Assembly (NCBI GenBank): GCA_028713995.1
Contig: JAQTNF010000017.1
Location: forward strand, 1 to 49,600
DNA from: Deltaproteobacteria bacterium
GTDB taxonomy: Bacteria; Myxococcota_A; Polyangia; JAAYKL01
Direction: 5' to 3'
Length of the DNA stretch: 49,600 nucleotides
Shown: piece after piece, positions 834 to 41,371 of the stretch
Layout: every line of letters begins with the position of its first letter
Numbering within the stretch: position 1 is the first letter of the stretch
The notes under the pieces: generated by a model
Databases searched by the model: none
What the model saw: only the letters and a program-made list of their open reading frames with translations
Told to the model about the DNA's origin: nothing
Program-made: the position numbers and the translations under genes

Positions 834-900
834 CCGTTTCCCTTCGCGCGGCCGCGGAAAAAAGCGGCGGGCGCGGAACAACGCCTCAAGCGGAGACCGC

Positions 901-2832
901 ATGATTACGAGTGACGTTTTCTTCAAGCACAAGGATGTGGACTGGAAGGAGCTCGGACTGCGCTGCGGCGTGGAGATCCACCAGCAGCTCCTCACCGAGC
1001 GCAAGCTCTTCTGCCGTTGTCCTGCGGGCCGCTACTCGGACCGCACCGACGCGCGGGTCGTGCGCCACATGCGCCCCACCCTGTCCGAGCTGGGCGAGTA
1101 CGACGGCACGGCGCTCATGGAGTTCAAGACCCGGAAGAACATCATGTACCTGCTCGATACGCGCACGGTGTGCACGTACGAGATGGACGATACGCCGCCC
1201 TTCGAGATCAACCGGGAGGCGGTCGACATCGCCCTCGAGGTCGCCATGGCGCTCGGCTGCCAGATCGTGGGCGAGCTGCACGTCATCCGCAAGCAGTACC
1301 TGGACGGCTCCATCCCGACCGGCTTCCAGCGCACGGCCATCGTGGGCATCGACGGCCAGATCCCGTTCCGCGGGCGCACCATCCAGATCATCCAGGTCAG
1401 CGTGGAGGAGGACGCCTGCCGCGAGGTGTCGGATCGCGGGCACGACGTCGTCTTCCGCACCGACCGGCTGTCCATGCCGCTGTGCGAGATCGTGACCGGG
1501 CCCGACATGCGCACGCCCGAGGAGGCCGCGGAAGTCGTGCGGCTGCTCGGACGCGTCATGCGCGGTACGGGCCGCGTGCGAAGGGGCGCCGGCGCCACCC
1601 GCGAGGACGTCAACGTGAGCGTGACGGGCAGCACGCGCGTGGAGATGAAGGGCGTTCCGAGCATCAGGTTCATCCCGCGGCTCGTGGGCAACGAGAGCCT
1701 GCGCCACCGCGCCCTGCTCGACGTCAAGGAGGAGCTCGAGCGCCGCGGCCTGAAGCCCGAGGACATCGAACCGCGCATGTTCGACGCGGCCGATCTCCTG
1801 GCGGGCACGGCGTTTTCGCCCATACGCGAGGCCCTCGCGCGCGGCGAGGACGTGCGGGGGGTGCGCCTTTGTGGGATGCGCGAGCTGCTCTCCCGTCCGG
1901 TGAACCCGCACCGAACGGTGTTCGACGAGCTCGCGGGCCGCGTGCGGGTCATCGCCTGCATCGACGAGGAGCCCATCCTGCTCCACAACGAGAACGTGGT
2001 CGGCCTCGGCATCGGCGTGGAGCAGATCCGGGCCGTCAGACGCAGGGCCAAGGCCAAGGCGCAGGACGCGGTCATCGTGCTGCGCGGCTCCCCCAAGGAC
2101 GTGGCGCTCGGCCTCGACGAGATCGTGGCGCGCGTCAAGGAGCTCTTCGCCGGCGTCCCGAGCGAGACGCGCCAGGTGCTGCCCACCATGGGCACCGACT
2201 TCGAACGCATCCTGCCCGGACCGGACCGCATGTACCCGGACACCGACTCACCGCCCATGTCCGTGCCCGACGGCTGGCTCGACAGCATCCGCCCGCGGCT
2301 CAAGGAGCCCGTCTGGGAGCGCGACACGCGGCTCGCGAAGCAGGGCCTGCCGCCGGACATGATCGAGATCCTCGGGCTGCACCCGCGCTTCCCGGTCTAC
2401 GATCGGGCCGTCGCCCGCGGCATGCCGCCCTTGCGCGTTGGAGAGCTCCTCACCTGGCGGTGGAACGCGCTCGCCAAGGCCGGCGTGCACCTTGGCGCCG
2501 TGCGCGACGACGTGATCTTGGATCTGTTCGCCGCGTGCGCCGAGGGCGCGGTGCTCTTCGAGAGCCTCCCCGGGCTCCTCGCGGACGCCGCCGCGGACGT
2601 CTCCGCCGGGGCGTGCGAGCTCATCTCGCGGCGCGGCCTCAAGGTGATGCGGGCGGCTGAGATCGGCCCGGCCGTGAGGAAGGCCCTGGCCTCGGCCGAG
2701 GCCCCGCGTTCGGCCGACCCGGAGGCCAGGATCCGCCACTACATGGGCGCGATCATGCCTTCTTTGCGCAGCGCGGCGCCCGGCAAGTCGGTGCGCGACG
2801 CGGTGGCAGCGTCCGTGGGGGCGGCCGCATGA
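901..2832 (+). CDS. gatE: GatE-like Glu-tRNA(Gln) amidotransferase subunit (archaeal type)
   Basis: A 643-residue protein of the GatB/GatE superfamily. GatE is the tRNA-binding kinase/transamidase subunit of the archaeal GatDE enzyme, which converts Glu-tRNA(Gln) to Gln-tRNA(Gln). Features seen: LGLRCGVEIHQQL near residue 18, KLFCRCP near 35, YLDGSIPTGFQRT near 133, VSVEEDACREV near 167 and TREDVNVSV near 231. These are the GatE forms of the catalytic cradle motifs. The length (GatE about 620-640, GatB about 480) and the extra middle segment around residues 300-420, where GatE carries its AspRS-like GAD domain, favour GatE over GatB. No gatD lies in the window. A GGAG precedes the ATG, and the stop overlaps the trpS start by four bases. 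Presence in a bacterium is unusual. Confidence 0.85.
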   Translation: MITSDVFFKHKDVDWKELGLRCGVEIHQQLLTERKLFCRCPAGRYSDRTDARVVRHMRPTLSELGEYDGTALMEFKTRKNIMYLLDTRTVCTYEMDDTPPFEINREAVDIALEVAMALGCQIVGELHVIRKQYLDGSIPTGFQRTAIVGIDGQIPFRGRTIQIIQVSVEEDACREVSDRGHDVVFRTDRLSMPLCEIVTGPDMRTPEEAAEVVRLLGRVMRGTGRVRRGAGATREDVNVSVTGSTRVEMKGVPSIRFIPRLVGNESLRHRALLDVKEELERRGLKPEDIEPRMFDAADLLAGTAFSPIREALARGEDVRGVRLCGMRELLSRPVNPHRTVFDELAGRVRVIACIDEEPILLHNENVVGLGIGVEQIRAVRRRAKAKAQDAVIVLRGSPKDVALGLDEIVARVKELFAGVPSETRQVLPTMGTDFERILPGPDRMYPDTDSPPMSVPDGWLDSIRPRLKEPVWERDTRLAKQGLPPDMIEILGLHPRFPVYDRAVARGMPPLRVGELLTWRWNALAKAGVHLGAVRDDVILDLFAACAEGAVLFESLPGLLADAAADVSAGACELISRRGLKVMRAAEIGPAVRKALASAEAPRSADPEARIRHYMGAIMPSLRSAAPGKSVRDAVAASVGAAA

Positions 2833-4070
2833 CGGCCCCCGAGGGGCGGGTCTTCAGCGGCATCCAGCCGAGCGGGGAGATCCACGTCGGAAACTACCTG
2901 GGCGCGGTCAAGAAGTGGGTCGAGCTCACGGCCACGCACGACTGCATCTACTGCGTGGTGGACGACCACGCCATGACCCAGGACTTCGATCCGGCGCTGC
3001 TCCCGCGGCTCACCTTCGACGCGGTCCTCACCACCATGGCGTGCGGCCTCGACCCGTCCCGGTGCACCATCTTCGTGCAGTCGCACGTGCCGGAGCACAC
3101 GGAGCTGTGCTGGCTGTTCAACACGGTCACGCCGCTCGGCTCCCTGTTCCGCATGACCCAGTTCAAGGAGAAGAGCCGCAACGCGCTCCACAAGGCGCTC
3201 GCCTTCGAGGGCGAGTCGCGCAGCGCGGCCATGCACCAGCTGCGCAACGCCGGTGACGGGGCGGTGAAGATGGCGCTCGAGATCGAGCCGCTGCTCGCGG
3301 AGATCCATCCCGAGGGCGAGACCGATCCCGCGGTCGCGGCGCGCTTGAACGACGCTCTCGGCAACCTGATGCAGCACCTGCAAGTGGGGCTCGGCGTCTC
3401 GGATGCGTCCACCGGGCTGTTCGACTACCCGGTGCTGATGGCCGCGGACATCCTGCTCTATAAGGCCGAGCTCGTGCCCGTGGGGGAGGACCAGGAGCAG
3501 CACCTGCAGCTCGCCCGCGAGGTGGCGGAGCGCTTCAACAAGCGCTTTTGCGAGGTGTTCCCCATGGCCCGGCGCATCCCGGGCGAAGCGCCGCGAATCC
3601 TGGGGCTCGACGGCCGGCGCAAGATGTCCAAGAGCCTCGGCAACCACATCGGCGTGCTCGATCCCTCGGACGTCGTTGAGAAGAAGCTCGCCCAGGCGTT
3701 CACCGATCCGCAGCGCCAGCGCCGCCGCGATCCGGGCCGCCCCGAGATGTGCAACGTGTTCACCCTGCACGGCCACTTCACGCCCGCCGAAAAGCGCGAC
3801 GAGCTCGCAGCCGGGTGCCGCTCGGCCGGCATCGGCTGCTTCGACTGCAAGAAGGTCCTCGCCGCCGGCGTGAACGCGGAGCTCGCGCCCATCCGGGAGC
3901 AGGCCGCGCGGCTTGCGCAGAGGCCCGACGAGGTGCTGTCCGCTCTCGACCGGGGCCGGGAGCGCTGCGGAACAATCGCCGCCGCGACGATGGACGAGGT
4001 GCGGGGCGCCATGGGGATCGGCCGCGCGGCGCTCGCGACGCGGGGCGGACGCGGATCCCAAAAAAGTTGA
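2829..4070 (+). CDS. trpS: Tryptophanyl-tRNA synthetase
   Basis: A class I aminoacyl-tRNA synthetase that charges tRNA(Trp). The HIGH-equivalent is HVGN at residues 19-22 after the typical FSGIQPSGEIH lead, and the KMSKS loop appears as RKMSKSLGN near residue 267. At 413 residues it is longer than the usual 330-350. The extra length lies mainly between the QFKEKS motif (about residue 117) and the FDYPVLMAADILLY motif (about residue 198), where an insertion of roughly 75 residues is found. A C-terminal Gln/Lys tail (GSQKS) ends the protein. The ATG sits inside the gatE stop (ATGA), implying translational coupling of two tRNA-charging functions. Confidence 0.95.
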   Translation: MTAPEGRVFSGIQPSGEIHVGNYLGAVKKWVELTATHDCIYCVVDDHAMTQDFDPALLPRLTFDAVLTTMACGLDPSRCTIFVQSHVPEHTELCWLFNTVTPLGSLFRMTQFKEKSRNALHKALAFEGESRSAAMHQLRNAGDGAVKMALEIEPLLAEIHPEGETDPAVAARLNDALGNLMQHLQVGLGVSDASTGLFDYPVLMAADILLYKAELVPVGEDQEQHLQLAREVAERFNKRFCEVFPMARRIPGEAPRILGLDGRRKMSKSLGNHIGVLDPSDVVEKKLAQAFTDPQRQRRRDPGRPEMCNVFTLHGHFTPAEKRDELAAGCRSAGIGCFDCKKVLAAGVNAELAPIREQAARLAQRPDEVLSALDRGRERCGTIAAATMDEVRGAMGIGRAALATRGGRGSQKS

Positions 4071-24403: not shown

Positions 24404-25082
24404 CTACGTTGTGGCCGGTAGTCGCCCCTGGAATCGGGATTGCTTCTTGCACCATCTCGCGGATCTGCCAGGGCATTGGACATTTATTGGTGACGAGGCC
24501 GAGCTGTCGATCGTCCGCCTGCGGATGTTAAAGCCGCGGTATGTCTTTTTCCTTCATTGGTCTATGTTGGTTCCCTTGGAAATTACCCGCGAGTTCGAGT
24601 GTGTTTGCTTCCACATGACGGATGTGCCGTACGGGCGGGGGGGCAGTCCACTACAGAACCTAATTGTCCGGGGGCACCGAGAGACCAAGCTCACGGCGTT
24701 GCGCATGGTCCCGCAGCTCGACGCGGGGCCGATCTATTTCAAGGAGCCGCTCTCCTTGACAGGACGTGCACAGGACATTTACAAGCGCGCAGAAGAGCTG
24801 TCGGTGCAAATGATTCGTCGCATTATCGAGGAAGAACCCGATCCCAGCCCGCAGGTGGGAGAGCCGGTGATTTTCTCGCGACGCAAGCCGCACCAGAGCC
24901 GCATCAAGGAAGTGGAGACATTGTCCGGGTTGTACGATCGCATCCGGATGGTCGATGCCGATGGATACCCCTATGCATTCCTCGAACACGAGAACTTGCG
25001 CTTGGAATTTCGCAACGCGCGTCTTCTGGAAGACTGTGTGGTTGCCGAGGTCACGATACGAATGAAGGAGGGCGACGGATGA
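24381..25082 (+). CDS. Formyltransferase-family protein of the pseudaminic acid cluster (PseJ-like)
   Basis: A 233-residue protein with the formyl-transferase core. FHMTDVPYGRGGSPLQNLIV (about residues 76-95) corresponds to the HxSLLPxyRG-type catalytic loop of methionyl-tRNA and sugar N-formyltransferases, and PQLDAGPIYFKEP corresponds to the conserved Asp-Gly substrate loop. It is too short for a tRNA formyltransferase and lies inside the pse block. A role in N-formylating a pseudaminic acid precursor or the finished sugar is therefore likely, as described for PseJ-type proteins. The GTG start lies within the end of the PseG-PseH gene; its stop overlaps the deacetylase start. Confidence 0.82.
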   Translation: MAKRENTSYVVAGSRPWNRDCFLHHLADLPGHWTFIGDEAELSIVRLRMLKPRYVFFLHWSMLVPLEITREFECVCFHMTDVPYGRGGSPLQNLIVRGHRETKLTALRMVPQLDAGPIYFKEPLSLTGRAQDIYKRAEELSVQMIRRIIEEEPDPSPQVGEPVIFSRRKPHQSRIKEVETLSGLYDRIRMVDADGYPYAFLEHENLRLEFRNARLLEDCVVAEVTIRMKEGDG

Positions 25083-25759
25083 ATGTGTTGGTGATTGCTG
25101 GCCACCCGGACGATGAGGTGCTTGGTTGTGGCGCAACCGTTCGCCGATTGGCCGGGGAAGGGCATGAAGTTCACATCGCAATCTTCGGCGAAGGTGCAAC
25201 CTCTCGCTATGCCGATCGCGGCTCGGCCTCCGGAAGTGAGGTCGAGCTGTTGGTATCCCAGGCCCAAGAGGCCGGGCGCATTCTTGGCGCAGCCTCGGTT
25301 CGGACACTCGGTCTGCCAGACAATCGGTTTGACAGCCTTCCGATTCTGGACGTGATCAAAATGGTTGAAGCGCTGGTCGGTGAGCTGACGCCGTCGCAGG
25401 TCTTCACCCACCATCCGGGGGACCTCAACATTGACCACCGCATCCTTTTCCGGGCCACGCTCACTGCGTGCCGACCACTGGCCGGTCACCTAGTGCAGGA
25501 GCTTCTGTGTTTCGAAATACCCTCTTCCACGGAGTGGGCCTTCCAGCGCTCTGGGCCATCCTTCCAGCCAACTGTGTTCTACAACATTCGCGAGACCCTG
25601 CCTCAAAAGCTCGAAGCTATGGATGTCTATTCGGGCGAGGTGCGCCCGTTTCCTCACCCGCGCTCGCCTGAGGCGTTGACTGCCTATGCCCACAGATGGG
25701 GCAGCGTGGTCGGTGTCGACGCGGCAGAGGCGTTTGAGCTAGTCCGTGTCGTTCGCTGA
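25079..25759 (+). CDS. PIG-L/LmbE-family sugar N-deacetylase (copy 1)
   Basis: A 226-residue zinc hydrolase of the PIG-L (CE14) family. The metal motif HPDDE is at residues 9-13 and the third ligand is in GDLNIDHRI near residue 119. Family members remove acetyl groups from GlcNAc-type substrates. Its place between a formyltransferase and pseI suggests it frees an amino group on the pseudaminic acid skeleton for another acyl or formyl group. It starts inside the formyltransferase stop (ATGA) and lies 15 bases before pseI. A paralogue with the same C-terminal PHPRS and VGVDAAEAF motifs occurs at 36072. Confidence 0.85.
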   Translation: MNVLVIAGHPDDEVLGCGATVRRLAGEGHEVHIAIFGEGATSRYADRGSASGSEVELLVSQAQEAGRILGAASVRTLGLPDNRFDSLPILDVIKMVEALVGELTPSQVFTHHPGDLNIDHRILFRATLTACRPLAGHLVQELLCFEIPSSTEWAFQRSGPSFQPTVFYNIRETLPQKLEAMDVYSGEVRPFPHPRSPEALTAYAHRWGSVVGVDAAEAFELVRVVR

Positions 25760-25774
25760 CCCATGGAGCAGTCC

Positions 25775-26815
25775 ATGAAGATCAATTCACGCGATATCGG
25801 GTCTTCCCACCCTGCGTATTTCATTGCCGAGATGTCCGGAAACCACGGACACGACTTCGACCGGGCCGTTCGTCTGGTTCGGGCCGCCCAAAAAGCGGGT
25901 GCCGACGCGGTCAAGCTCCAGACCTACACCGCTGACACAATCACAATCGACTGCGACAACGAGTACTTCCACATCAGTGAAGGACCCTGGGCGGGGCGCA
26001 ATCTCCACGACCTGTACGAAGAAGCGCACACGCCGTGGGAGTGGCAGCCGAAGCTGAAAAAGCTCGGCGACGAGTTGGGAATTGAGGTGTTTTCTACGCC
26101 GTTCGACCCGACGTCCGTGGAGTTCCTCGAAACGGAAGTAGGTGTGAACGTCTACAAGGTCGCATCGTTCGAGGTGGTGGACATCCCTTTGCTCGAGAAG
26201 GTGGCATCCACGAAAAAGCCAGTGATCATGTCCACAGGGATGGCGACACTGGCCGAGATAGACCGCGCCGTGCGCACCCTGCGTGACGGCGGGGCGCCTG
26301 CGGTGGCGCTCCTGCGCTGTGTGAGCAGCTACCCGGCCACGCCCGACCAGATGAACCTGGCCACCATCCCGCACCTAGCCGAGACCTTTGGCTGCGTTGC
26401 CGGGCTGTCCGATCACACTTTGTCGCCAGCGGTCCCGGTGGCCGCGGTGGCGCTTGGCGCAAAGATCGTCGAGAAACACTTTACGCTGTCGCGCGCCGAT
26501 GGCGGGCCTGACGCCGCATTTTCGCTGGAGCCGGACGAGCTCAGGCACACGGTGGAGATGATTCGCCACGCGGAGGCGGCTGTCGGGCGGGTCACTTACG
26601 GTGCCGGCCTGGACGAGGCGGGTAGCGTCGTTTTCCGCAAGTCATTGTTCGTTGTAGAGGATGTGAAGAAGGGCGAGCAGTTCACCGCTCAGAACGTACG
26701 GGTAATCCGACCAGGGCATGGGTTGTCGCCGATAGAGCTGCCCCGAGTGTTTGGCAAAATGGCAGTCAAGGATATATGTCGAGGGACTCCGTTGAGTTGG
26801 GAGATGATTGGTTAA
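25775..26815 (+). CDS. pseI: Pseudaminic acid synthase
   Basis: A 346-residue NeuB/PseI-type synthase that condenses the 6-deoxy-AltdiNAc sugar with phosphoenolpyruvate. The TIM barrel shows FIAEMSGNHGHDFDRAVRLV, ADAVKLQTYTADTITID, EVFSTPFDPTSVEFLE, YKVASFEVVDIPLLEKVAST and the metal-binding HFTLSRADGGPDAAFSLEPD. The C-terminal 60 residues (SLFVVEDVKKGEQFTAQNVR) form the antifreeze-like SAF domain. TADTITID and the SFE motif favour PseI over NeuB. GGAG eight bases upstream supports ATG 25775 over 25763. Confidence 0.95.
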   Translation: MKINSRDIGSSHPAYFIAEMSGNHGHDFDRAVRLVRAAQKAGADAVKLQTYTADTITIDCDNEYFHISEGPWAGRNLHDLYEEAHTPWEWQPKLKKLGDELGIEVFSTPFDPTSVEFLETEVGVNVYKVASFEVVDIPLLEKVASTKKPVIMSTGMATLAEIDRAVRTLRDGGAPAVALLRCVSSYPATPDQMNLATIPHLAETFGCVAGLSDHTLSPAVPVAAVALGAKIVEKHFTLSRADGGPDAAFSLEPDELRHTVEMIRHAEAAVGRVTYGAGLDEAGSVVFRKSLFVVEDVKKGEQFTAQNVRVIRPGHGLSPIELPRVFGKMAVKDICRGTPLSWEMIG

Positions 26816-26879
26816 GAGGCATTTGTTCCAGAGCAGGGTCTAGCCCCTATTTTATAAGAAAGAAGAGAGTCAACTCCCC

Positions 26880-27491
26880 ATGTTCAAAACCGAGCAAGAA
26901 TCATTTTGGGCTGGCGCCTTTGGTGATGACTACATTGATAGAAACAAAGGAGAGAAGCTATATGCCGGAAACCTCGCCCTCTTTTCAGAAATAATCAAAA
27001 GGACAACAAATATCAGATCTGTACTAGAAATAGGTGCGAACGTTGGAATGAATTTGATGGCAATAAGTCAGCTCCTGCCCGAAGCAGAGATGTCTGGAAT
27101 AGAAATAAACGACAAAGCATCCGAAATATTGAAAGGTAAGATCAATGGGAAAGTATATTGCACGTCGATCGTGGAATATGTGGTTGACTACCAAAGAGAT
27201 CTTGTCCTGTCAAAAGGTGTGTTGATTCATATCAACCCTGATGAACTGCCGAAAACATACGATCTGATGTATGATGCTTCGCGTAAATACATTTGTATTG
27301 CGGAATATTATAATCCGAGTCCTGTCTCAATAAATTACAGAGGTCATGACAACAAGCTATTCAAAAGGGATTTCGCGGGTGATTTAATGCAGCGACACAA
27401 GGACTTGATCTTGGTTGATTATGGATTTGCATACCACAAGGACAATAATTTCTCACAAGACGATATTACATGGTTCTTGCTTAGAAAGTAA
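26880..27491 (+). CDS. Pseudaminic acid biosynthesis-associated methylase
   Basis: A 203-residue SAM-dependent methyltransferase. It begins KTEQESFWAGAFGDDYIDRN, the signature opening of the family recorded as pseudaminic acid biosynthesis-associated methylases (TIGR03587 from memory), followed by the SAM motif VLEIGANVGMNLMAI near residue 48. LVLSKGVLIHINPDELP is the other conserved block. It probably methylates a nonulosonic acid or its acyl group. The gene is strikingly AT-rich compared with pseI just upstream, with codon use to match, indicating separate acquisition. It ends the pse block. Confidence 0.88.
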   Translation: MFKTEQESFWAGAFGDDYIDRNKGEKLYAGNLALFSEIIKRTTNIRSVLEIGANVGMNLMAISQLLPEAEMSGIEINDKASEILKGKINGKVYCTSIVEYVVDYQRDLVLSKGVLIHINPDELPKTYDLMYDASRKYICIAEYYNPSPVSINYRGHDNKLFKRDFAGDLMQRHKDLILVDYGFAYHKDNNFSQDDITWFLLRK

Positions 27492-27822
27492 ACGGTCTGC
27501 ATTCTTGTCTAGTGAAGCAAGAATAACTGGCGTCGGTGACCTCCGGAACGATCTTCCAGAGTACGCGCTCATCGCTGATAGACTGGTTCCGCGCGATTTG
27601 GTGGGTGACCAGCCAGAAAACTGGGACCAACGCGCTTGGGGGGCGACCTCGGGCGGGAAGCTACCAACCTGCTCCGGTGCGGCTTGAGATCACCGGGCAA
27701 TAGTGCTATAATCCGTTTCGGGTGGAATTGAACACAGTAATGAGGGACGGGTGGATCGCAAGATCTTCCCAATTGTGCAAGGTCAAGATGCCTTTGTCCC
27801 GATCGTGTGCAGGAGAAAGCGA
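27492..27822 (+). other. Non-coding stretch with promoter; no gene recognised
   Basis: About 330 bases between the methylase and the wbuX-like gene. The first 190 bases regain high GC and read as a short open frame (segments like ARITGVGDLRNDLPEYALIA) that I cannot assign; it may be debris of a lost gene. The last 140 bases contain the promoter at 27684-27712 and the leader of the amidation operon. Confidence 0.5.
27684..27712 (+). promoter_or_regulatory. Strong sigma70-type promoter for the wbuXYZ operon
   Basis: TTGAGA (27684-27689), an exact 17-base spacer and a perfect TATAAT (27707-27712). This is the best promoter-like site I noticed in the window. It would give a leader of about 100 bases before ATG 27823. 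Confidence 0.7.
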
Positions 27823-28968
27823 ATGCGTTACTGTAACAATTGTGTGATGCCGGACACCAAACCGGATCTGAAACTGGACGAACACGGCGTGTGCAACGCT
27901 TGCCGAAGCTATGAGCGACGGCGGGAGGTTGATTGGAACCAGCGGCGAGAAGAGTTCTTGAAGATTCTTGACCGCTACCGATCCAAGGACTGTTCCCATT
28001 GGGACTGCATCGTCCCGGTCAGTGGTGGCAAAGATAGCACTTATCAGGTGATCAGGATATTGCAGCTGGGTATGAATCCGCTATGTGTGACCGCGACGAC
28101 CTGTCACTTGTCGGATATCGGGCGGCGGAACATAGAGAATTTGAAGCAACTCGGCGTGGACCACATCGACTTTTCCCCGAATCCGGTGATCCGGCGGAAG
28201 CTCAATCGGATTGGACTGATGCAAGTCGGTGACATTTCCTGGCCGGAACATGTCGGCATCTTCACCATTCCGATCCGGGTGGCGGCGCAATACAATGTGC
28301 CGTTGTTGATCTGGGGCGAAAACTCCCAGAACGAATACGGCGGCCCGGCAGCGGATAGCGAGAACAACGTCCTGACGCGGCGGTGGCTCGAGGAATTTGG
28401 CGGGCTCCTGGGCCTGAGAGTCTCGGATCTGGTCGGCCTCGAGGGGATTGAGAAGAAGCATCTCGTGCCCTATCTGTATCCGTCCGACGAAGAATTGCAG
28501 CGGACAGGGGTTACCGGCATCTTCCTCGGGTACTACGTCCCGTGGGACGGCTATACCAATTCCCTGATTTCCCAGGCTCACGGGTTCAGCACCCTGACGT
28601 CCACGGTGGAGGGCTCCTGCGTAAATTATGAGAATCTGGACAACCATCAGACCGGCATCCATGATTACTTCAAGTTCTTGAAGTTCGGCTTTGGCCGCGC
28701 CACTGACCTGGCCTGCTTGCACCTGCGACGGGGGCGGCTGTCCCGCCAGGAAGCCATCGCGATAGTGAACCGGCACGACGGCAAGTTTCCCTGGATGTAT
28801 CTCGGGAAACCGCTGTCGGAAATTCTTGCTCCGCTGGACATCGGCTTGGAGGAGTTTATCGCAATCTGCGACAAGTTCACCAACAGGAAACTATTCATGA
28901 CCGACGCGCGAGGCAGCCTGGTCAAGGACAAGCACGGGAACCTTACCAAGAGAGTCTATCCGGAATAG
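27823..28968 (+). CDS. wbuX: N-acetyl sugar amidotransferase (WbuX/WbpG family)
   Basis: A 381-residue ATP-pyrophosphatase-type enzyme. YCNNCVMPDTKPDLKLDEHG then CNACRSYE supply two CxxC zinc motifs. VPVSGGKDSTYQVI near residue 65 is the PP-loop that adenylates the acetamido group. IWGENSQNEYGG is also conserved in the family. Together with HisH- and HisF-like partners it converts an N-acetyl group to an acetamidino group using ammonia from glutamine, as in O-antigen ManNAc3NAmA or in amidinated nonulosonic acids. ATG 27823 is chosen because AGGAGA sits six bases upstream and the zinc motif starts at once; the open frame further upstream looks non-coding. Confidence 0.92.
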   Translation: MRYCNNCVMPDTKPDLKLDEHGVCNACRSYERRREVDWNQRREEFLKILDRYRSKDCSHWDCIVPVSGGKDSTYQVIRILQLGMNPLCVTATTCHLSDIGRRNIENLKQLGVDHIDFSPNPVIRRKLNRIGLMQVGDISWPEHVGIFTIPIRVAAQYNVPLLIWGENSQNEYGGPAADSENNVLTRRWLEEFGGLLGLRVSDLVGLEGIEKKHLVPYLYPSDEELQRTGVTGIFLGYYVPWDGYTNSLISQAHGFSTLTSTVEGSCVNYENLDNHQTGIHDYFKFLKFGFGRATDLACLHLRRGRLSRQEAIAIVNRHDGKFPWMYLGKPLSEILAPLDIGLEEFIAICDKFTNRKLFMTDARGSLVKDKHGNLTKRVYPE

Positions 28969-28971
28969 ATC

Positions 28972-29589
28972 ATGTTGACGGTTGTGATCGACTACGGCAT
29001 GAGCAACCTGTGTTCTCTCACCCGAGCGTTGGAGGAATGCGGCAGCAAGGTCTTGGTTTCGGAACACCCGGGCGACCTGAAGGCCGCGACCCATATTGTG
29101 TTGCCCGGAGTGGGGGCGTTCGCCGACGGGATGAAAAACCTGAATGCTTCGGGGTTTGCCTCCGCGATCCGTGAGGAAGTTCTCGGCAACGGCATCCCGC
29201 TGCTAGGCATCTGTCTGGGCATGCAACTGCTGGCAGATACCGGTGATGAAGGCGGCCCCACCGCCGGACTCGGCTTGGTTTCCGGTGCTGTAAAACGCCT
29301 GTCCTCCGGTGAACACGAGCGGATCCCGCATGTCGGCTGGAACGAAGTTTTTCCGGCTGCCGGCAGTCCGTTCTTTGCCGGCATTCCCGAGGGTACGGAT
29401 TTCTATTTCGTGCACAGCTATCACTTCGTTCCAACGGAGTCGGACAGCATCGCGGCAAGAACTCCGTATTGCGGCGGATTTGTTTCCGCGATCCGTCGGC
29501 TGCCAATCTGGGGTGTCCAGTTCCACCCCGAAAAAAGTCAACTGCCGGGGTTCAGGGTCCTACACAACTTTTTGCGGTTTCGCGGGTGA
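28972..29589 (+). CDS. wbuY: HisH-like glutaminase subunit of the sugar amidotransferase
   Basis: A 205-residue class I glutamine amidotransferase that releases ammonia. The start VVIDYGMSNLCSLTRALEE is HisH-like. The nucleophile is Cys81 in GICLGMQLL, and the His-Glu pair is in QFHPEKSQ. No other his genes are nearby and the gene sits between wbuX-like and wbuZ-like genes, so it is the second HisH copy dedicated to amidino-sugar formation rather than histidine synthesis. It starts three bases after the wbuX stop. Confidence 0.92.
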   Translation: MLTVVIDYGMSNLCSLTRALEECGSKVLVSEHPGDLKAATHIVLPGVGAFADGMKNLNASGFASAIREEVLGNGIPLLGICLGMQLLADTGDEGGPTAGLGLVSGAVKRLSSGEHERIPHVGWNEVFPAAGSPFFAGIPEGTDFYFVHSYHFVPTESDSIAARTPYCGGFVSAIRRLPIWGVQFHPEKSQLPGFRVLHNFLRFRG

Positions 29590-29592
29590 AAC

Positions 29593-30366
29593 GTGCTCAA
29601 GGTGCGAGTAATTCCGACGTTGCTTTGGAAGGATGAGACCCTGGTAAAGGGGATCAGTTTTGATAGTTGGCGTCGGGTCGGCACGCTGCTGCCGGCGATC
29701 AGGGTATACAACCTGCGGCAGGTCGATGAACTTGTCCTGCTCGACATTACCGCGACCAGCCAGGGGCGTCAGCCCGATCTCGATGCCGTCGCGGAAATTT
29801 CCGGGGAATGCTTTGTCCCGCTTACCGTTGGTGGCGGAGTAGATTCTCTGGAGGATATCAGAAACCTGTTGCGAGTGGGCGCGGACAAGGTGGCCATAAA
29901 CTCCGCAGCCTACGAGAAACCTGACCTGCTGGAAATTGCATCCGGCCGGTTCGGCGCCCAGTGCGTCGTGGTCAGCATCGACGCTCGGCGCAGGACGGAT
30001 GGAACCCATGAATGCTATAGCCATTCCGGGACCCGACCGACTGGCCGACTGATTGAAAACTGGGCACGGGAAGCGGAACGTCGTGGCGCCGGCGAGATTC
30101 TTCTGACCTCCATTGACCGGGACGGGACCATGCAAGGCTATGATCTAGAGCTGATCCGAAAAGTTACGACCGCAGTGAGGATTCCGGTGATCGCCTCTGG
30201 CGGCGCAGGCAACTTCAGTCACTGTCTTGCGGCAATCAACCGCTCAGGAGCTTCCGCTGTCGCGGCGGCAAGCATCTTCCATTTTACGGAGAAAACGCCC
30301 TTGGAGGTCAAACAATACCTGGGACGGAACGGGATTCCCGTACGGAAAGGCGACGTTTCCCTGTGA
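29593..30366 (+). CDS. wbuZ: HisF-like ammonia-channel/synthase subunit (WbuZ family)
   Basis: A 257-residue TIM barrel related to HisF. The N-terminus reads VIPTLLWKDETLVKGISFDS. The catalytic Asp of true HisF in the IPCLD motif is replaced by Leu, as expected for the WbuZ glycan-amidation branch. LTVGGGVDSLEDIRNLLRVG and TSIDRDGTMQGYD remain. It should deliver ammonia from the HisH partner to the WbuX-type enzyme. GTG start, three bases after wbuY. The 130 bases downstream contain no recognisable gene. Confidence 0.9.
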   Translation: MLKVRVIPTLLWKDETLVKGISFDSWRRVGTLLPAIRVYNLRQVDELVLLDITATSQGRQPDLDAVAEISGECFVPLTVGGGVDSLEDIRNLLRVGADKVAINSAAYEKPDLLEIASGRFGAQCVVVSIDARRRTDGTHECYSHSGTRPTGRLIENWAREAERRGAGEILLTSIDRDGTMQGYDLELIRKVTTAVRIPVIASGGAGNFSHCLAAINRSGASAVAAASIFHFTEKTPLEVKQYLGRNGIPVRKGDVSL

Positions 30367-30496
30367 GGCCAAGCGCAATTTGTTCGGATTTGCACTTGGA
30401 CCGCCGCTTCGGCGATATGCAGGCCCGCAACTTCATTCATCTCCCCCCGGAATAGTCGGAAGATGTTCGCGCTAACGACCGAAAAGTGAGCCGAAA

Positions 30497-31909
30497 ATGC
30501 CCCTACCCTTTCTTGCCAGTTGGATCATTGCATTCGTACGCCCTTGGGACATGGAGCTCTTCCGAGCGCTGGTCAACGAACTCCAGAAAGAAGCCCCGCC
30601 TCAGCAGAGACCCCGGATCCGCTACCTGACTTTCTGGAAGGAGACCGAGCAGCGGCTTCGTCAAGTTGTGAATCGCGATGACGAGGTGGTCTTTCTTCCA
30701 GAGCGGATGAGGTGCGTTTCTCTGGACCGCGCGAAGATCATCGCGCTGGAACAAAAGGAACGAAAGCTCATCGACCAGGGAATGACCCCGCTTAAAACGA
30801 TGATGGAATGCGAGAGGTTCGCGCCCACCAATGGACAGGCCGCGGAAGATTTTATGTGGCGTTCCTTCGCGGCACACGACGAACTTATTCCAGAAAATAC
30901 CATATTGCTGAGCAACGAAGTCGACCATGTATGTTACTGGATTGCCTGCGATCTGTGCAATGTCAGGAATGGCCGGTTTTTTGGGTTCGGTGTTTCTGGG
31001 CGGCCATCTGACTATACACAGGTGGTGCGAAACACTACGAACATGTGGACTTTGAATAAGCCCACGGAAGAACACTATCATGTAGTCGATCGGCAGATTC
31101 AAGAGATAGAGTCGGGCGTATTGCCCTCATATATGTACAAGACGAACCCATATCCCAAGCTGCGGAACAAGGCGGAAATTATTTTCTCACGAATGAAAGA
31201 GGCGCATGCAGGCAACTACTTCATGAAATGGCCCACAATTCTGGCGCCTGGATTGCAGAAGGCCAAAGAGCTCAAATGGAATCTGTTCGGGTCCGGCGTG
31301 AAGCACTGGAATCTAGATGAGATAGTCAGACCTTTTGTGTACTTTCCGTTGCATCTCGAGCCCGAGGCCACCACGTCGGTATACGCCCCTTACTTCAAGT
31401 ATCAGGACATCGTCATCGACTGGCTGGCCAAGTCTCTGCCTGCTGGCGTAGATCTCGTATTGAAGGAAAATCCCAAGATGTGGGGCAACCGCAGCCGGCG
31501 TTTCTATCAAAACGCAGCTCGTATTCCCGGCGTGCGATGGATCGATCCGCGAACGTCTTCGCGTGATCTCACATTGAAATCCTCGGCGGTGGTGACTATC
31601 ACCGGCACCGTTGCCATCGAAGCCTTGGCCTTGAACAAGCCAGTGGCCATTATGGGCAATCCGCCCTATGGCGACGCGCTGAAATGCATTCCACGGATGA
31701 AGAACCCGGAAGAGCTCGTTGCGGGCCTTGTCAGTCTGCTAGAATCGAAGATTGACAGAGAGGTGTTTAGAAGAGAGTATGCGACCTACATCGCGAATCT
31801 CATCAACAAACCGTTCAACAACATCAGGCGAGAGTCGAACACGCCCTATCCGGTGTATGTATTTCACAAAGAGCATGCTAAATATGTGCGAGGGATATTG
31901 AATTGGTGA
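30497..31909 (+). CDS. Capsule-type polysaccharide synthesis protein, probable glycosyltransferase
   Basis: A 470-residue soluble protein. The C-terminal half has the KpsS/LipB-like capsule synthesis pattern: FVYFPLHLEPEATTSVYAPY near residue 280, VLKENPKMWG, then DPRTSSRDLTLKSSAVVTIT and GTVAIEALALNKPV near residues 375-395, a GT-B nucleotide-sugar site. KpsS/KpsC proteins are Kdo transferases. In this cluster the donor could instead be the CMP-nonulosonate made by the pse genes, but this is only inference. Residues 1-220 are less familiar. GC is lower than in the first operon. Confidence 0.72.
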   Translation: MPLPFLASWIIAFVRPWDMELFRALVNELQKEAPPQQRPRIRYLTFWKETEQRLRQVVNRDDEVVFLPERMRCVSLDRAKIIALEQKERKLIDQGMTPLKTMMECERFAPTNGQAAEDFMWRSFAAHDELIPENTILLSNEVDHVCYWIACDLCNVRNGRFFGFGVSGRPSDYTQVVRNTTNMWTLNKPTEEHYHVVDRQIQEIESGVLPSYMYKTNPYPKLRNKAEIIFSRMKEAHAGNYFMKWPTILAPGLQKAKELKWNLFGSGVKHWNLDEIVRPFVYFPLHLEPEATTSVYAPYFKYQDIVIDWLAKSLPAGVDLVLKENPKMWGNRSRRFYQNAARIPGVRWIDPRTSSRDLTLKSSAVVTITGTVAIEALALNKPVAIMGNPPYGDALKCIPRMKNPEELVAGLVSLLESKIDREVFRREYATYIANLINKPFNNIRRESNTPYPVYVFHKEHAKYVRGILNW

Positions 31910-31975
31910 GGACGTGGCTTTCAAATTATGCGAGTCCAGCAGATTCCTATTTTACAATCATTTTCGGCCAATTAG

Positions 31976-33145
31976 ATGATGACGCACATAAAAACAAATC
32001 TCAGCGTTAAGCTTCTCATCGTCGCTTTCCTATTGTCGCTACTTTCAGGTCCTATTGGTAGTATTATGTTTTGGACACAGAAGGGTAGAGATGTTCTAGG
32101 GTTTCAATTTTTTGAAATGTTCAAGATACCAATGATAATCATGACATTAGCCGCGATCGTGTCCTTGGTCCGTTCAAGAAAGATCTATTTTAGCCGAGAA
32201 TCATATCTTTTTATTCTGTTCTTTCCTCTTGCACTAATTGTGGGAATCACAGAACATGGACTTAACTACTATTCGTTGGTTCACATATACGGAATATTGA
32301 TGCCAGTTGTGGCAATTTCCTTTGGCTATCATCTTGTCGCTTATTGGAATGGTTTCGATAGCGAACTATGGCGCAAGGTCTTTCTTGTGGCGTTGGTTGC
32401 TGTTGTGCCGGTGGTTATTTATTACTTCTTCCTGGTAAGAACAGAAGTTATTGATCGATTTGGTGTTAGTACAGATCTTTCGGTGCTTTTCGCATATTTT
32501 CTTGTAAAGAAAAAACGCATTGGAACATTTGTAGTAATGACCATGGCTCTTCTTACGGGCAAGCGTGTAACTCAGTTGTCGATTGTTGCGATATTATTGT
32601 TCTATTTCGGACAAATAGTTGCCTCGAATGTCGCAATGAAAGCCAAGAAAAATGCCATTTTGGTGATTATTCTTGCACTATTGTCCATTCCAATAGCGGA
32701 TTACTTTGATCTATTGGGAAGGTACAGAGGAATACCTGACGCTATTATTAGTGGGACAAAGAGTGCGGAGGTGTCATCTGGGCGTGACATAGATATTGAG
32801 TGTGCGAAAGATTATATAGATCGATCACTGGGTGGCTGGTGGCTTGGCGGTGGGGTTGGAAGCAGCTATGTAGTGTATATAAGTGAAATGAAGAGAGTCC
32901 TGCACTATAGCCATTTCATGCCACTAACGTATACAATGATCATGGGTGTTGTATTTGCGGTATTGCTTTATGGCTCGATGGCATATACAGCATTAAATGC
33001 TTTTCGCAGGGTCAAGGAGTCCTTTGTAACATGTGCATTTGTTGGATTGGCAGTAGCATCCTTTAGTGGGCCGAATCTATTGGTGGACCCATTTCCGTGG
33101 GTGTTGCTTGGCGGAATTGGTGCGCAGTTAAAGAATATCCACTGA
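31976..33145 (+). CDS. Wzy-like O-antigen/EPS polymerase (polytopic membrane protein)
   Basis: A 389-residue protein with about 10-11 hydrophobic segments (LLIVAFLLSLLSGPIGSIMF, YLFILFFPLALIVGI, VFLVALVAVVPVVIYYFFLV and others). A long loop around residues 245-300 contains SSGRDIDIECAKDYID and GGWWLGGGVG. This topology with one large loop is usual for Wzy polymerases, whose sequences are poorly conserved. The gene is very AT-rich relative to the window, a common trait of wzy. It is assigned by topology, composition and context between two glycosyltransferase-type genes rather than by motif. Confidence 0.68.
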   Translation: MMTHIKTNLSVKLLIVAFLLSLLSGPIGSIMFWTQKGRDVLGFQFFEMFKIPMIIMTLAAIVSLVRSRKIYFSRESYLFILFFPLALIVGITEHGLNYYSLVHIYGILMPVVAISFGYHLVAYWNGFDSELWRKVFLVALVAVVPVVIYYFFLVRTEVIDRFGVSTDLSVLFAYFLVKKKRIGTFVVMTMALLTGKRVTQLSIVAILLFYFGQIVASNVAMKAKKNAILVIILALLSIPIADYFDLLGRYRGIPDAIISGTKSAEVSSGRDIDIECAKDYIDRSLGGWWLGGGVGSSYVVYISEMKRVLHYSHFMPLTYTMIMGVVFAVLLYGSMAYTALNAFRRVKESFVTCAFVGLAVASFSGPNLLVDPFPWVLLGGIGAQLKNIH

Positions 33146-33239
33146 AAGAATATTTACTGCGCTGCAACCCAATAAGACAGGCTGTATTCCCCCTTGGGAC
33201 GCATCCGACAGCAGTGATAGTGCGAGATAAAATGAGATT

Positions 33240-34430
33240 ATGAATAGAGATATAGTATACGATTGGATCGTGCTTAACCAGAGCTTAGCGCCGACGTTCC
33301 AACGGATGTTGGAGGACCTCTCGGAACCCATTGGGGACGGTCTTCTCATGACTGGTTCATCGCATCCGGTCGGTGGCGGCCGAATGACAGTACGCGGGAT
33401 GCCGGCCTACGACCGCGGTCCCCTGTACCGGCGTGCCACCTCCTGGATGAAGTTCATGGCCCGCGCGGCTCCTTCTCTTGCACTCCAAGATGGCAAACCA
33501 TTTCTGGTCGCGGTCTCGAACCCACCGTTGAACGCGCAGCTCGCGCTTGCCCTCTCCCGGACGAGAGGAATGCCATACGGACTATTGATCTGGGACATCT
33601 ACCCGGACGCTCTCGTCCGCCTCGGCTGGCTGAGGCAGAATAGTCCGGTCGTGCGAGCGTGGCGCCGCTTCAACGCCATGGCCATGCTCGAGGCGCGAGT
33701 GGTCGTAACGCTTGGGGAACGGATGAGACGCGTGCTTGCCGAACAAGTGGGCTCGGCAGCGGATCGCGTGCGTTGGGAGGTGATACCGAACTGGGTAGAC
33801 ACGAGCGTCTTCCGGCCGCGCGAAGGGCATGAAAACCCCTTCGCCTGCGAGCAGGGATGGATAGACGGCACGACCGTTCTCTATTCAGGCAACATCGGCG
33901 CCGGGCACGGAGTAGAGATGCTGCCGGCTGCGGCTCGGCTCCTTTCGGAGAACCGCGACATTCGTTTCGCCGTGGTGGGTGACGGCCTTGGCAGGCCTGC
34001 CCTGGAGCGAGAGGTGGCCGTGCGAAATCCGCCGCGCTTCACGCTCCATCCGTACCAACCCTGGGATCGCGTTCCCGAGGTTGTCGCAACGGGAAATATC
34101 GCCGTTGTATTCCAGCGACCGGGCTTTGAGGATCTCGCCATGCCGAGCAAGACATACTCCGCCCTGGCGTCCGGATCGGCGATCCTCGCCGTGACGAGCG
34201 ACAATAGCGATCTCGCCGCGTTGGTCCGAGACCACGATGTCGGTATTGTCGTCTCCGCCAACCCAACGGCTATATCCGAGGGTTTGAAACAACTCGTTAC
34301 CAATCCACGGGCTCTACAGAAAATGAGGTGTCGTGCCCGAGCGGTAGCCGTAGCGCATTTCGACACACAGGTAATTCGTCGTAGATGGGAAACAGTGCTC
34401 TCTCCACTAATTCACGGCAGTCATGGCTGA
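33240..34430 (+). CDS. GT4-family glycosyltransferase (WbuB-like)
   Basis: A 396-residue GT-B glycosyltransferase. The N-terminal domain includes FLVAVSNPPLNAQLALALSR and LLIWDIYPDALVRLGWL, typical of WbuB/WcaI-like enzymes. The C-terminal donor domain has VIPNWVDTSVFRP, VLYSGNIGAGHGVEMLPAAA, VGDGLGRPALE and the acidic motif near FEDLAMPSKTYSALASG. These enzymes usually add an amino sugar early in repeat-unit assembly. It is followed by a GNAT gene and the initiating transferase and regains high GC after the AT-rich polymerase gene. Confidence 0.88.
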   Translation: MNRDIVYDWIVLNQSLAPTFQRMLEDLSEPIGDGLLMTGSSHPVGGGRMTVRGMPAYDRGPLYRRATSWMKFMARAAPSLALQDGKPFLVAVSNPPLNAQLALALSRTRGMPYGLLIWDIYPDALVRLGWLRQNSPVVRAWRRFNAMAMLEARVVVTLGERMRRVLAEQVGSAADRVRWEVIPNWVDTSVFRPREGHENPFACEQGWIDGTTVLYSGNIGAGHGVEMLPAAARLLSENRDIRFAVVGDGLGRPALEREVAVRNPPRFTLHPYQPWDRVPEVVATGNIAVVFQRPGFEDLAMPSKTYSALASGSAILAVTSDNSDLAALVRDHDVGIVVSANPTAISEGLKQLVTNPRALQKMRCRARAVAVAHFDTQVIRRRWETVLSPLIHGSHG

Positions 34431-34523
34431 AGAGAAAGCAAAGTGCGCGCCGCGTGCGAGTCTTGCGATCCAGACGCCACTGCGTGTGGCATACGTCAGT
34501 TGTACGGTTATGGAATCGAGCGG

Positions 34524-35456
34524 ATGATCTCCGACATCGAGTTTCGCTCCTTCCAAGAAGGCGACGAACCTGCGACCGCCGCACTGTTTGCTCGCGCGTA
34601 CCCGGGCAGGATGATGGAAGTGAGAACATGGCGGTGGCGATTTGTCGAAAACCCGGTGGGAGAGACCGTCGTCGAGCTCGCGTTTTCAGGCGATCGCCTC
34701 GTGGCCCACTACGCCGTTACTCCGGTCTCGGTCTTCATCGCCGGCCAACGCAAGCGCGCCGCGCTCTCGGGCACCACGATGACGGACCCCGAATTCTCGG
34801 GGAGAGGCCTGTTCCCCGCACTCGCTAAGCGAGCGTATGAACGTTTATCCAGTCGTCATTATGCGTTCGCCTACGGTTTCCCGAATATGAATTCCCATCG
34901 CGGATTCATCCGCGATCTCGCATGGCGTGATGTATGGGAGGTGCCGATCTTCCGACTCGACATCGCAAGTTTCCGCTCTACGCTGTCACGGTCGACGGCA
35001 TCGCGAGAGGTGGGATGGGACGACGCGCTCGCGAAGGGGTTTGAACCCGACCCAATTCAGGGTGTTGGCCTCGTGCGGGATCGCGCTTTTCTCTCTTGGC
35101 GCTACCAGCGCAACCCGTCGCAACGGTATCGGGTTCTCTCGAATGGAGACGGCGGCTTGCTCGTTTTCAAACGATACAAGGACGAGCTCCAAATCATGGA
35201 GCTTCTCAGCTCCGACCAACAGCGGTTCGATTTGGTCGACGCCCTGGTCCGGAAGGCAAAGGGCGAAGGATGCGCATCCGTGGGTATGTGGCTCAATTTG
35301 CACGACCCACTGCACCGGGAGCTGGAGCGTTGGGGCTTCGAGAATTCGATGCCGATCACCTATCTGTGCGCAAAGGCGCTGGAACCCGAGTTTCCCGCGG
35401 TGATTGCGAGCTACGCCAATTGGAACATTTCCATGGGAGATTCCGATGTCTTCTGA
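34524..35456 (+). CDS. GNAT-family acyltransferase of the polysaccharide locus
   Basis: A 310-residue protein with a GNAT fold. The N-terminal half has IEFRSFQEGDEPATAALFAR and the acetyl-CoA loop TTMTDPEFSGRGLFPALAKR near residue 89. The C-terminal half (about residues 180-300) looks like a second GNAT-like lobe, with the segments FLSWRYQRNP and GLLVFKR. Such double-GNAT proteins often sit in EPS clusters and acylate amino sugars; the substrate is unknown. ATG 34524 is chosen because the residues before it in the open frame look non-coding. Its end overlaps the sugar-transferase start by 11 bases. Confidence 0.75.
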   Translation: MISDIEFRSFQEGDEPATAALFARAYPGRMMEVRTWRWRFVENPVGETVVELAFSGDRLVAHYAVTPVSVFIAGQRKRAALSGTTMTDPEFSGRGLFPALAKRAYERLSSRHYAFAYGFPNMNSHRGFIRDLAWRDVWEVPIFRLDIASFRSTLSRSTASREVGWDDALAKGFEPDPIQGVGLVRDRAFLSWRYQRNPSQRYRVLSNGDGGLLVFKRYKDELQIMELLSSDQQRFDLVDALVRKAKGEGCASVGMWLNLHDPLHRELERWGFENSMPITYLCAKALEPEFPAVIASYANWNISMGDSDVF

Positions 35457-36057
35457 GTCGTTGCTGCGGGGGCGCGCGGCGCGGATCGTCAAGCGTCTCT
35501 TCGATGTCGGCGCGTCGACGGCCGTCCTCGGCTTCGGATGGCCGGTCATGGTCGGAGTCGCCACGGCGATTCGCGCGACCTCATCGGGGCCTGTATTCTT
35601 CATTCAAGAGCGGGCCGGGCGAGGCGGCAGGCCGTTCCGCATGTACAAGTTCCGCACGATGACCCACAGACCCGACAAGGCGCAGACTCTCGACTGGAGT
35701 TCCGAGGAGGCCGCCGCGGTGACCCCGATCGGTAGCTTCTTGCGCGACTACGGTCTCGATGAGCTGCCCCAAGTGCTCAACATACTCAAGGGTGAGATGA
35801 GCGTTATAGGGCCGCGGCCGACCTTGCCGAGGCAAGCAGAGGAATTTTGCGAGCGCGAAAAGAGAATGCTGGACATGCGCCCGGGTGTGCTGTCTTTGGC
35901 AGCGATCCGTGGACGGCGTGGGATATCCATGAGCGAAAGGTACGAACTCCATGCTCAATATGTTGATACGTGGTCCCTTCTTCTCGACTTAGAGATATTG
36001 ATCAAGTCCGCTGTTGTAGTTTTGGGGCGACAGAATGCCGTTGAAAAGACGGTTTGA
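35446..36057 (+). CDS. Initiating sugar-phosphate transferase (PglC-like, bacterial sugar transferase)
   Basis: A 203-residue membrane-associated phosphoglycosyl transferase of the small PglC class. RIVKRLFDVGASTAVLGFG is the re-entrant membrane segment. PVFFIQERAGRGGRPFRMYK followed by FRTM, and LDELPQVLNILKGEMSVIGP followed by RP, are the two catalytic blocks, the first normally carrying the Asp-Glu dyad region. It transfers a sugar-1-phosphate to undecaprenyl phosphate and so starts repeat-unit assembly. PglD- and PglE-like genes are nearby, so UDP-diNAc-bacillosamine is the likely donor. It shares 11 bases with the GNAT gene. Confidence 0.9.
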   Translation: MSSESLLRGRAARIVKRLFDVGASTAVLGFGWPVMVGVATAIRATSSGPVFFIQERAGRGGRPFRMYKFRTMTHRPDKAQTLDWSSEEAAAVTPIGSFLRDYGLDELPQVLNILKGEMSVIGPRPTLPRQAEEFCEREKRMLDMRPGVLSLAAIRGRRGISMSERYELHAQYVDTWSLLLDLEILIKSAVVVLGRQNAVEKTV

Positions 36058-36071
36058 AGGGGAATAGCGAA

Positions 36072-36734
36072 ATGACAAATGCACGAAAAGTTCTCGTTGT
36101 GTCGGCCCATCCGGATGATGAGACAATTGGTGCTGGTGGCACGATTCTGCGACACGTTGCTTTGGGAGACACGGTCAGTTGGTGCGTCGTCACAAAGGGC
36201 TACACGCCGAAGTGGTCGGAAGAGATGCTGGAGGCGGCATCGCGGCAGGTCGACGAGGTTGCGTCATTATACGGGTTCGCATCCGTTCATCGCCTCGGGC
36301 TCCCCACCGTCCGCCTTAACACAGTGCCCCATATGGAGCTTTGCGATAAGCTCAAGAACGTTGTCGATATCGTCAAGCCACTCGTCCTGTACATTCCTCC
36401 GGCTAGCGACTTGAACCAGGATCACCGACTGGTGCACGAAGCGGCGTTGGTCGCGGCAAGACCACTTCCCGGATGCTCGGTTCAACGCATCCTTTCGTAC
36501 GAGATCTCGACGACGTCCAGATATGGTTTTGGTGTGTTCGTTCCGACCGTCTATGTTGACATTTCGGAATACCTTGAAAAGAAGATGGGCATCATGGCTG
36601 TCTACAACACAGAGCTCAAAGAATGGCCTCATCCGCGATCGATCGAGGGTTTGTCGGTGATCGCCAAGGAACGTGGTCTGGCCGTAGGTGTTGATGCTGC
36701 CGAGTGTTTCGATCTCGTCAGGGAGATTATATGA
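36072..36734 (+). CDS. PIG-L/LmbE-family sugar N-deacetylase (copy 2)
   Basis: A 220-residue zinc deacetylase. HPDDE is at residues 13-17 and SDLNQDHRLVHEAAL supplies the third ligand near residue 116. It is a paralogue of the protein at 25079, sharing YEISTTS-like, WPHPRSIEG and VGVDAAECFDLVR blocks. The C-terminal end is intact. ATG 36072 has AAGGGGA nine bases upstream; an alternative TTG at 36054 overlaps the previous stop. Lying between the initiating transferase and the pglD-like gene, it may act on a different acetamido sugar from copy 1. Confidence 0.85.
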   Translation: MTNARKVLVVSAHPDDETIGAGGTILRHVALGDTVSWCVVTKGYTPKWSEEMLEAASRQVDEVASLYGFASVHRLGLPTVRLNTVPHMELCDKLKNVVDIVKPLVLYIPPASDLNQDHRLVHEAALVAARPLPGCSVQRILSYEISTTSRYGFGVFVPTVYVDISEYLEKKMGIMAVYNTELKEWPHPRSIEGLSVIAKERGLAVGVDAAECFDLVREII

Positions 36735-36862
36735 AGGTCCAGACGACCAACCGCAATGCGCTCATCTGACATGACGGTTTGGAAGGTCCTCTGCAGAGAG
36801 GGCATCAACGCAGGGGGTGAGGCAACCATGCCGGAGTTCATGGGAAGCAAGGAGAGTAGCTT

Positions 36863-37522
36863 TTGAAGAAGCGACGGGTAGCCATATACGGTGCCGGAGG
36901 ATTTGGCCGCGAGGTTGCTTGGCTCGCGGAAAGTTACGCGCGGCCTAAGGGGGGCTTCGAGGTTGTGGCTTTCATCGATGACGAATTCAGAAAGCCAGGA
37001 GAGACAATCAATGGCTTCCCCGTAGTCAGAGTGAAAGACCTTTCGTCTAGATATCCCGATACTGGCGTCGCCATCGCCATCGGAAATCCAAAGGCCAGGC
37101 AGGCGGTAGCGGAACGCTGCCTGGCTTTGGGATTGGCATTTGTGGAACTGATCCACGAGGGGGCAGAGACCTCGCGGTGGGTCGAGATTGGAGAGGGCGC
37201 GGTCATCTGCGGCGGTAATATCATCACGACCAACATCATTTTCGGAACGCAGGTCCAGATCAATCTAGACTGTACCATAGGTCACGACGTGATTATGGAT
37301 GACTACACGACATTGGCGCCAGGTGTGCATGTGTCGGGTTGTGTCCACATGGGAAAGCGCGTCTATGTTGGCACTGGCGCAGTTTTCGTGAACGGCACCC
37401 AAGATTCGCCATTGGTCATTGGTGACGACGCGGTGATTGGGGCAGGAGCGTGCGTGACCAAGTCGGTACCGTCAGGAGAAACGTGGGTCGGTATTCCCGC
37501 AAGGCCTCTGGTGCGCCCATGA
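36863..37522 (+). CDS. PglD-like sugar O/N-acetyltransferase
   Basis: A 219-residue protein with an N-terminal Rossmann-like PglD_N domain (VAIYGAGGFGREVAWLAESY) and a C-terminal left-handed beta-helix of hexapeptide repeats. The catalytic-type His is in NLDCTIGHDVIMDDYTTLAP near residue 138, and the end reads VGIPARPL. PglD acetylates the 4-amino group of UDP-4-amino-bacillosamine. TTG start preceded by AAGGAGAG. The stop overlaps an ATG that begins not the intact aminotransferase but a frameshifted copy of its 5' end. The 128 bases upstream hold nothing recognisable. Confidence 0.88.
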   Translation: MKKRRVAIYGAGGFGREVAWLAESYARPKGGFEVVAFIDDEFRKPGETINGFPVVRVKDLSSRYPDTGVAIAIGNPKARQAVAERCLALGLAFVELIHEGAETSRWVEIGEGAVICGGNIITTNIIFGTQVQINLDCTIGHDVIMDDYTTLAPGVHVSGCVHMGKRVYVGTGAVFVNGTQDSPLVIGDDAVIGAGACVTKSVPSGETWVGIPARPLVRP

Positions 37523-37601: not shown

Positions 37602-37696
37602 CCCGGGAAACAGGCCTTTCCCGCAGGGGGGTGGAATGGCAACTGAGGAATCTGAAGACTGAAGGCATCCTTCTGTGAAAAATGGACAATGACCCA

Positions 37697-39753: not shown

Positions 39754-39759
39754 GACACC

Positions 39760-41213: not shown

Positions 41214-41235
41214 CCGATTGGATCTGGGTGAGCGG

Positions 41236-41361: not shown

Positions 41362-41371
41362 ACAAGAGAGC

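Follow-up and report, generated by a model that had tools for sequence, protein, structure and literature searches.

Reviews place the amidotransferase GatDE only in archaea (PMC9499178; PMC8007984), where it recognises the A1:U72 pair and the D loop of tRNAGln (PMC9499178; PMC8007984). The described substrate of archaeal GatDE is Glu-tRNAGln. By contrast, the GatCAB of Thermus, Deinococcus, Pseudomonas and Bdellovibrio, which provides an indirect amidation route beside GlnRS and AsnRS, is taken to serve Asn-tRNA. Acidithiobacillus ferrooxidans is not known to have a GlnRS, and uses GatCAB together with two GluRS enzymes. According to a review, its GluRS1 charges a tRNA only when the D stem is augmented and base 47 is absent (PMC9976931). 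In a published scheme, a genome with GlnRS but no GatCAB is taken to have a defunct indirect route to glutamine and a discriminating GluRS (PMC3927822).

The window, that is, the whole stretch of 49,600 nucleotides analysed here, comes from a bacterial genome assembly of 4.98 Mb in 218 contigs which is 97% complete, with contamination given as 0.88%. Near its start lies a gene for GatE, with the following features:

892 to 895, forward strand: GGAG, probable ribosome-binding site of gatE, from the sequence
901 to 2832, forward strand: gatE, subunit E of a GatDE Glu-tRNA(Gln) amidotransferase, bacterial branch, 643 aa
937 to 1755, forward strand: first part of the GatB/GatE catalytic (cradle) domain, residues 13–285 (PF02934; invariant columns in 38 homologues)
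1756 to 2154, forward strand: AspRS-like GAD insert, residues 286–418 (structure model against AspRS)
2305 to 2829, forward strand: helical and YqeY-like tRNA-binding tail, residues 469–643 (structure model)
2829 to 2832, forward strand: ATGA overlap of the gatE stop with the trpS start, from the sequence
2829 to 4070, forward strand: trpS, tryptophanyl-tRNA synthetase, 413 aa (TIGR00233, 283.6 bits, cut-off 176.75)

The gatE reading frame runs from an ATG at 901 to a TGA at 2830–2832, and its product contains all of the motifs (GVEIHQQL, KLFCRCP, DGSIPTGFQRT, EEDACREV, TREDVNVSV) from which an earlier sequence-only reading had judged it to be GatE rather than GatB. That judgement holds. The protein passes both NCBIfam equivalog models for GatE [TIGR00134, 406.6 bits, cut-off 319.55; NF003107, 496.3 bits, cut-off 456] and falls far below the cut-off of the gatB model [TIGR00133, 118.4 bits against 314.8], which together with its placement apart from GatB in the tree rules out a GatB identity. 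Phmmer aligned residues 13–635 with the GatE of P. abyssi [1.2e-100, 1zq1_C] and with that of M. thermautotrophicus [2.8e-88, 2d6f_C], and the catalytic motifs are invariant in 38 homologues. The identity of the gene as GatE is near certain, and that it is the GatE of a GatDE pair is scarcely open to doubt. Because such proteins already pass as GatE in the NCBIfam models, annotation pipelines probably assign the name and draw no attention to it.

An AlphaFold2 model of the protein built from the 38 homologues (mean pLDDT 87) resembles the archaeal subunits closely [2d6f_D, Z 37.6; 1zq1_C, Z 34.0]. The first part of the cradle domain bears the GVEIHQQL, DGSIPTGFQRT and EEDACRE motifs. The insert at residues 286–418, where the sequence-only reading had expected an AspRS-like GAD domain at about 300–420, aligns in the model to the GAD of E. 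coli AspRS over 123 residues [1c0a, Z 15.3, rmsd 2.5]; the Pfam sequence model PF02938 did not detect it. The domain is present, and the protein does not fall inside GatB. The modelled tail, residues 469–643, can be superposed on the tRNA-binding region at the N-terminus of human GlnRS (Z 9.1) as well as on YqeY (Z 7.5). The likeness to archaeal GatDE (1zq1, 2d6f) extends to both subunits, the domain order, the GAD insert, the catalytic motifs and alignment over the full length.

The earlier reading, which noted no gatD near gatE, had proposed a search of the genome for gatD, gatCAB, glnS and asnS. The gene is indeed not next to gatE in the window, but it is not missing from the genome: contig C2 encodes a full-length GatD at about 708–2090 [TIGR02153, 511.1 bits, cut-off 324], the sole asparaginase-family gene in the genome, which gives matches of about 400 bits to both solved archaeal GatD proteins. 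The suggestion that GatE works with a different partner thus finds no support, and a GatE acting alone with a new partner is an unneeded assumption. GlnRS (contig C176), one GluRS (C38), AsnRS (C131) and a bacterial AspRS (C2) were identified. No GatB was found in the genome, and because the only PF02934 (GatB_N) match is the window gatE itself, GatCAB is missing. As the genome also has GlnRS, GatDE would represent a second route to Gln-tRNA. The genome belongs to the class with GlnRS and without GatCAB, yet it has a complete GatDE, so the conclusion that the indirect route is defunct in this class can fail.

Having AsnRS and GlnRS beside an amidotransferase, this bacterium recalls Thermus, Deinococcus, Pseudomonas and Bdellovibrio, although GatB is absent here. 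The host is not an archaeon lacking GlnRS, which is where GatDE has been reported; that description concerns where the enzyme occurs, not how it is built or what it does. Unlike archaeal GatDE, the pair described here has a bacterial host, falls in a separate bacterial clade, accompanies GlnRS and meets tRNAGln with U1:A72 instead of A1:U72; moreover, in the window's lineage gatE lies apart from gatD and is coupled to trpS.

As the sequence-only reading had noted, the trpS start at 2829 overlaps the gatE stop, which ends at 2832, and trpS is probably translationally coupled to gatE. The nearest GatE relative (locus L040) also has gatE followed by trpS, without gatD nearby, and downstream of them a small lipoprotein-like gene similar to one in the window. 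In the next relative (L041) gatE and gatD are adjacent; the split and the coupling to trpS are therefore a local event common to two species. Directly upstream of the window gatE, on the same strand, is a gene for a protein with two TFIIB-type zinc ribbon domains (450–833).

GatE trees were built with GatB as outgroup in versions of 94 and 62 rows, with archaea sampled from one phylum only and one haloarchaeal GatE from a plasmid search left out. A branch with support 100 divides GatB from all GatE. The typical archaeal GatE sampled form one clade (98), except the long-branched L299. The bacterial GatE form another (96 with 94 rows, 98 with 62 rows), in which gatE and gatD are usually neighbours; together with three Thermoplasmatota groups it makes up a clade with support 100. 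An AU test did not reject the placing of the archaeal bacterial-type rows in one clade (p 0.68). The window protein lies within GatE, inside the large bacterial clade. Of the two origins that had been offered for it, the tree does not show direct acquisition from archaea by this organism and rejects a recent archaeal transfer; the other, a bacterial GatE branch, is borne out by a supported clade spanning many phyla. An old archaeal origin of this whole clade is possible. Two Thermoplasmatota genomes each carry a typical archaeal and a bacterial-type GatE (G413, L294 and L295; G404, L296 and L297).

Within the clade the window GatE pairs with L040 (99) and then L041, both from Myxococcota; the window GatD pairs with L041 (100) in a tree that does not contain the L040 GatD. 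Sharing their nearest relatives, the two subunits were probably inherited together. The window GatE stands apart from the GatE of the same-family genomes G241 and G366, to which it is only about 45% identical, and exchange between lineages is therefore likely. In these two genomes, the closest pair available, gatE and gatD are under purifying selection (dN/dS 0.13 and 0.08, respectively).

In a survey of 379 genomes of the phylum, 29 had a GatE over the cut-off and one a weaker GatE. All 30 have a GatD over the cut-off. By coordinates, gatD lies close to gatE on the same contig in 28, the exceptions being the window's genome and G084, where a contig end cuts gatD beside gatE. GlnRS accompanies GatDE in 28 of the 30 (27 over the cut-off, one in fragments), and the two genomes without it, G003 and G272, both have GatB. 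At least 582 candidate stretches encoding relatives turned up in a species-level collection of genomes. The best 80 of these came from Myxococcota, Planctomycetota, Ignavibacteriota, Aminicenantes, Calditrichota, Latescibacterota, Acidobacteriota and others; nearly all are bacterial, with three records named as archaea. Most of these 80 loci contain gatD, and among them gatE and gatD have no recurrent neighbours besides each other.

The host of this GatE is bacterial, as are the relatives, and, judged by its closest GatE relatives, probably belongs to Myxococcota. An enzyme confined to archaea in reviews has a large, little-noticed bacterial branch to which the window pair belongs. We found no paper describing bacterial GatDE in the literature searched, which mostly excluded subscription journals, and an earlier report is possible. 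In one family of loci (f28: L019, L021, L023, L025, L027, L030–L036) GatE is about 560–620 aa long and the GatE model ends near position 508–543 of 622, so that throughout the family the tail at the C-terminus has been either shortened or replaced. A very divergent GatE (L039, genome G110), 29% identical to that of the window, below the cut-off and with a branch length of 4.7, has gatD adjacent; its genome also carries GatB and GlnRS.

ARAGORN identified two tRNAGln in the window's genome, with anticodons UUG and CUG. The former is canonical, with G2:C71 and a five-base variable loop. The latter has C2:G71 in place of G2:C71, GC at 10:25, UA at 11:24, CG at 12:23, UG at 13:22 and a four-base variable loop, a pattern which lacks base 47, has an augmented D stem and matches the genome's own tRNAGlu. 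Both have U1:A72, and no dedicated A1:U72 tRNAGln was found among the two. The resemblance to Acidithiobacillus ferrooxidans lies in this kind of tRNAGln, there a reported (PMC9976931) and here a putative substrate of GluRS; the window's genome, however, has one GluRS, GlnRS and GatDE. In G241 and G366, which as close relatives count as one case, a nearly identical tRNAGln(CUG) gene is found some 120 bp away from gatE. In two archaeal loci a tRNAGln(CUG) of the A1:U72 kind adjoins a bacterial-type gatE or gatD (L048, 3692–3765; L084, 5271–5342). A further archaeal locus has a tRNAGln gene directly beside gatE or gatD (L299, 1813–1888).

With moderate confidence, we regard the following as the best explanation: in the window's family, bacterial GatDE together with GluRS provides for tRNAGln(CUG), and GlnRS for tRNAGln(UUG). 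The single GluRS would misacylate the Glu-like tRNAGln(CUG), and GatDE would correct the product, with GlnRS charging the canonical tRNAGln(UUG). The window GatE would pair with the GatD encoded on C2, which would free ammonia from glutamine or asparagine; GatE would then use ATP to phosphorylate the glutamate of Glu-tRNAGln and amidate it to Gln-tRNAGln. The predicted pair very probably amidates Glu-tRNAGln. More hesitantly, we put forward a putative role mainly in the service of tRNAGln(CUG); charging of this tRNA by GluRS and acceptance of a U1:A72 tRNA by GatDE are both plausible. It seems rather doubtful that GatDE is a standing second Gln-tRNA route beside GlnRS across many bacterial phyla and that, in the window's family, tRNAGln(CUG) is served only by GluRS and GatDE. 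Were the division of labour true, two tRNAGln isoacceptors would be charged by different enzymes. How an amidotransferase known for A1:U72 copes with U1:A72 tRNAs is now directly testable.

Several points speak against this division. Archaeal GatDE reads A1:U72 and both tRNAGln here have U1:A72, GlnRS could charge both, and the specificity of GluRS enters as well: the enzyme carries Lys where E. coli has Arg350, and the influence of this position reportedly differs from one species to another (PMC3927822); a comparison of the Arg358/350 position in the GluRS of G272 and G003 gave no clear rule. Glu-like tRNAGln also occurs in phages of Flavobacterium. The Flavobacterium hosts have GlnRS. A phage–host comparison of the two kinds of tRNAGln is suggestive only, because the canonical kind also matches alphaproteobacteria, which use GatCAB. 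Furthermore, in three GatDE genomes (G110, G198 and G035) a canonical tRNAGln(CUG) lies beside glnS, so that the division cannot be general. In the main rival, GlnRS would charge both tRNAGln while a leaky GluRS makes some Glu-tRNAGln, and GatDE, as a general clean-up enzyme, would repair it on any isoacceptor and take over the role of GatCAB in other GlnRS-bearing bacteria. In keeping with this, GatDE accompanies GlnRS in 28 of the 30 GatE genomes, also where tRNAGln(CUG) is canonical. GatB over the cut-off occurs in only 5 of 29 GatE genomes, as against 264 of 350 GatE-less genomes of the phylum in which the GatE model finds a GatB-like partial match or better, a loose count which ignores kinship and in which some matches may be the YqeY domains of GlnRS instead of GatB. 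Such a clean-up leaves unexplained the Glu-like tRNAGln(CUG) and its position beside gatE in the window's family, and we consider it rather unlikely.

Alternatively, bacterial GatDE might have switched to a different substrate, such as another Glu-tRNA or a free carboxylate, and no longer form Gln-tRNA. GlnRS or GatCAB is always also present, so that Gln-tRNA could be made without GatDE; the two tRNAGln of the genome differ from the archaeal substrate in having U1:A72, and the tail is shortened or divergent in the f28 family. The window protein nevertheless keeps its catalytic motifs, GAD and tRNA-binding tail, tRNAGln genes adjoin gatDE in several lineages and the 80 loci offer no other recurrent neighbour, all of which makes a change of substrate improbable. 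The low identity of the window GatE to that of its own family, and its different position in the tree, might also suggest mis-binned contigs or a recent non-functional import. This is very improbable indeed. Tetranucleotide use in the window's first 20 kb and in the GatD contig resembles that of the genome's remaining contigs (mean r 0.82 and 0.79), and contigs of same-family genomes show a lower correlation (0.53–0.58); GC3 is alike in gatE, trpS, gatD and glnS (0.94 to 0.98), contamination is given as 0.88%, and the gatE–trpS order is kept in L040.

At loci L154, L165 and L169, in three GatDE genomes, a tRNAGln(CUG) gene directly precedes glnS in the same orientation. Farther along the window, positions 25000–45000 hold surface polysaccharide genes (NeuB, epimerases, a glycosyltransferase and Polysacc_synt_2) with a DegT aminotransferase just before them. 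The tetranucleotide fit of this stretch to the genome is lower (mean r 0.68) than the 0.82 of the first 20 kb, and it was perhaps acquired.
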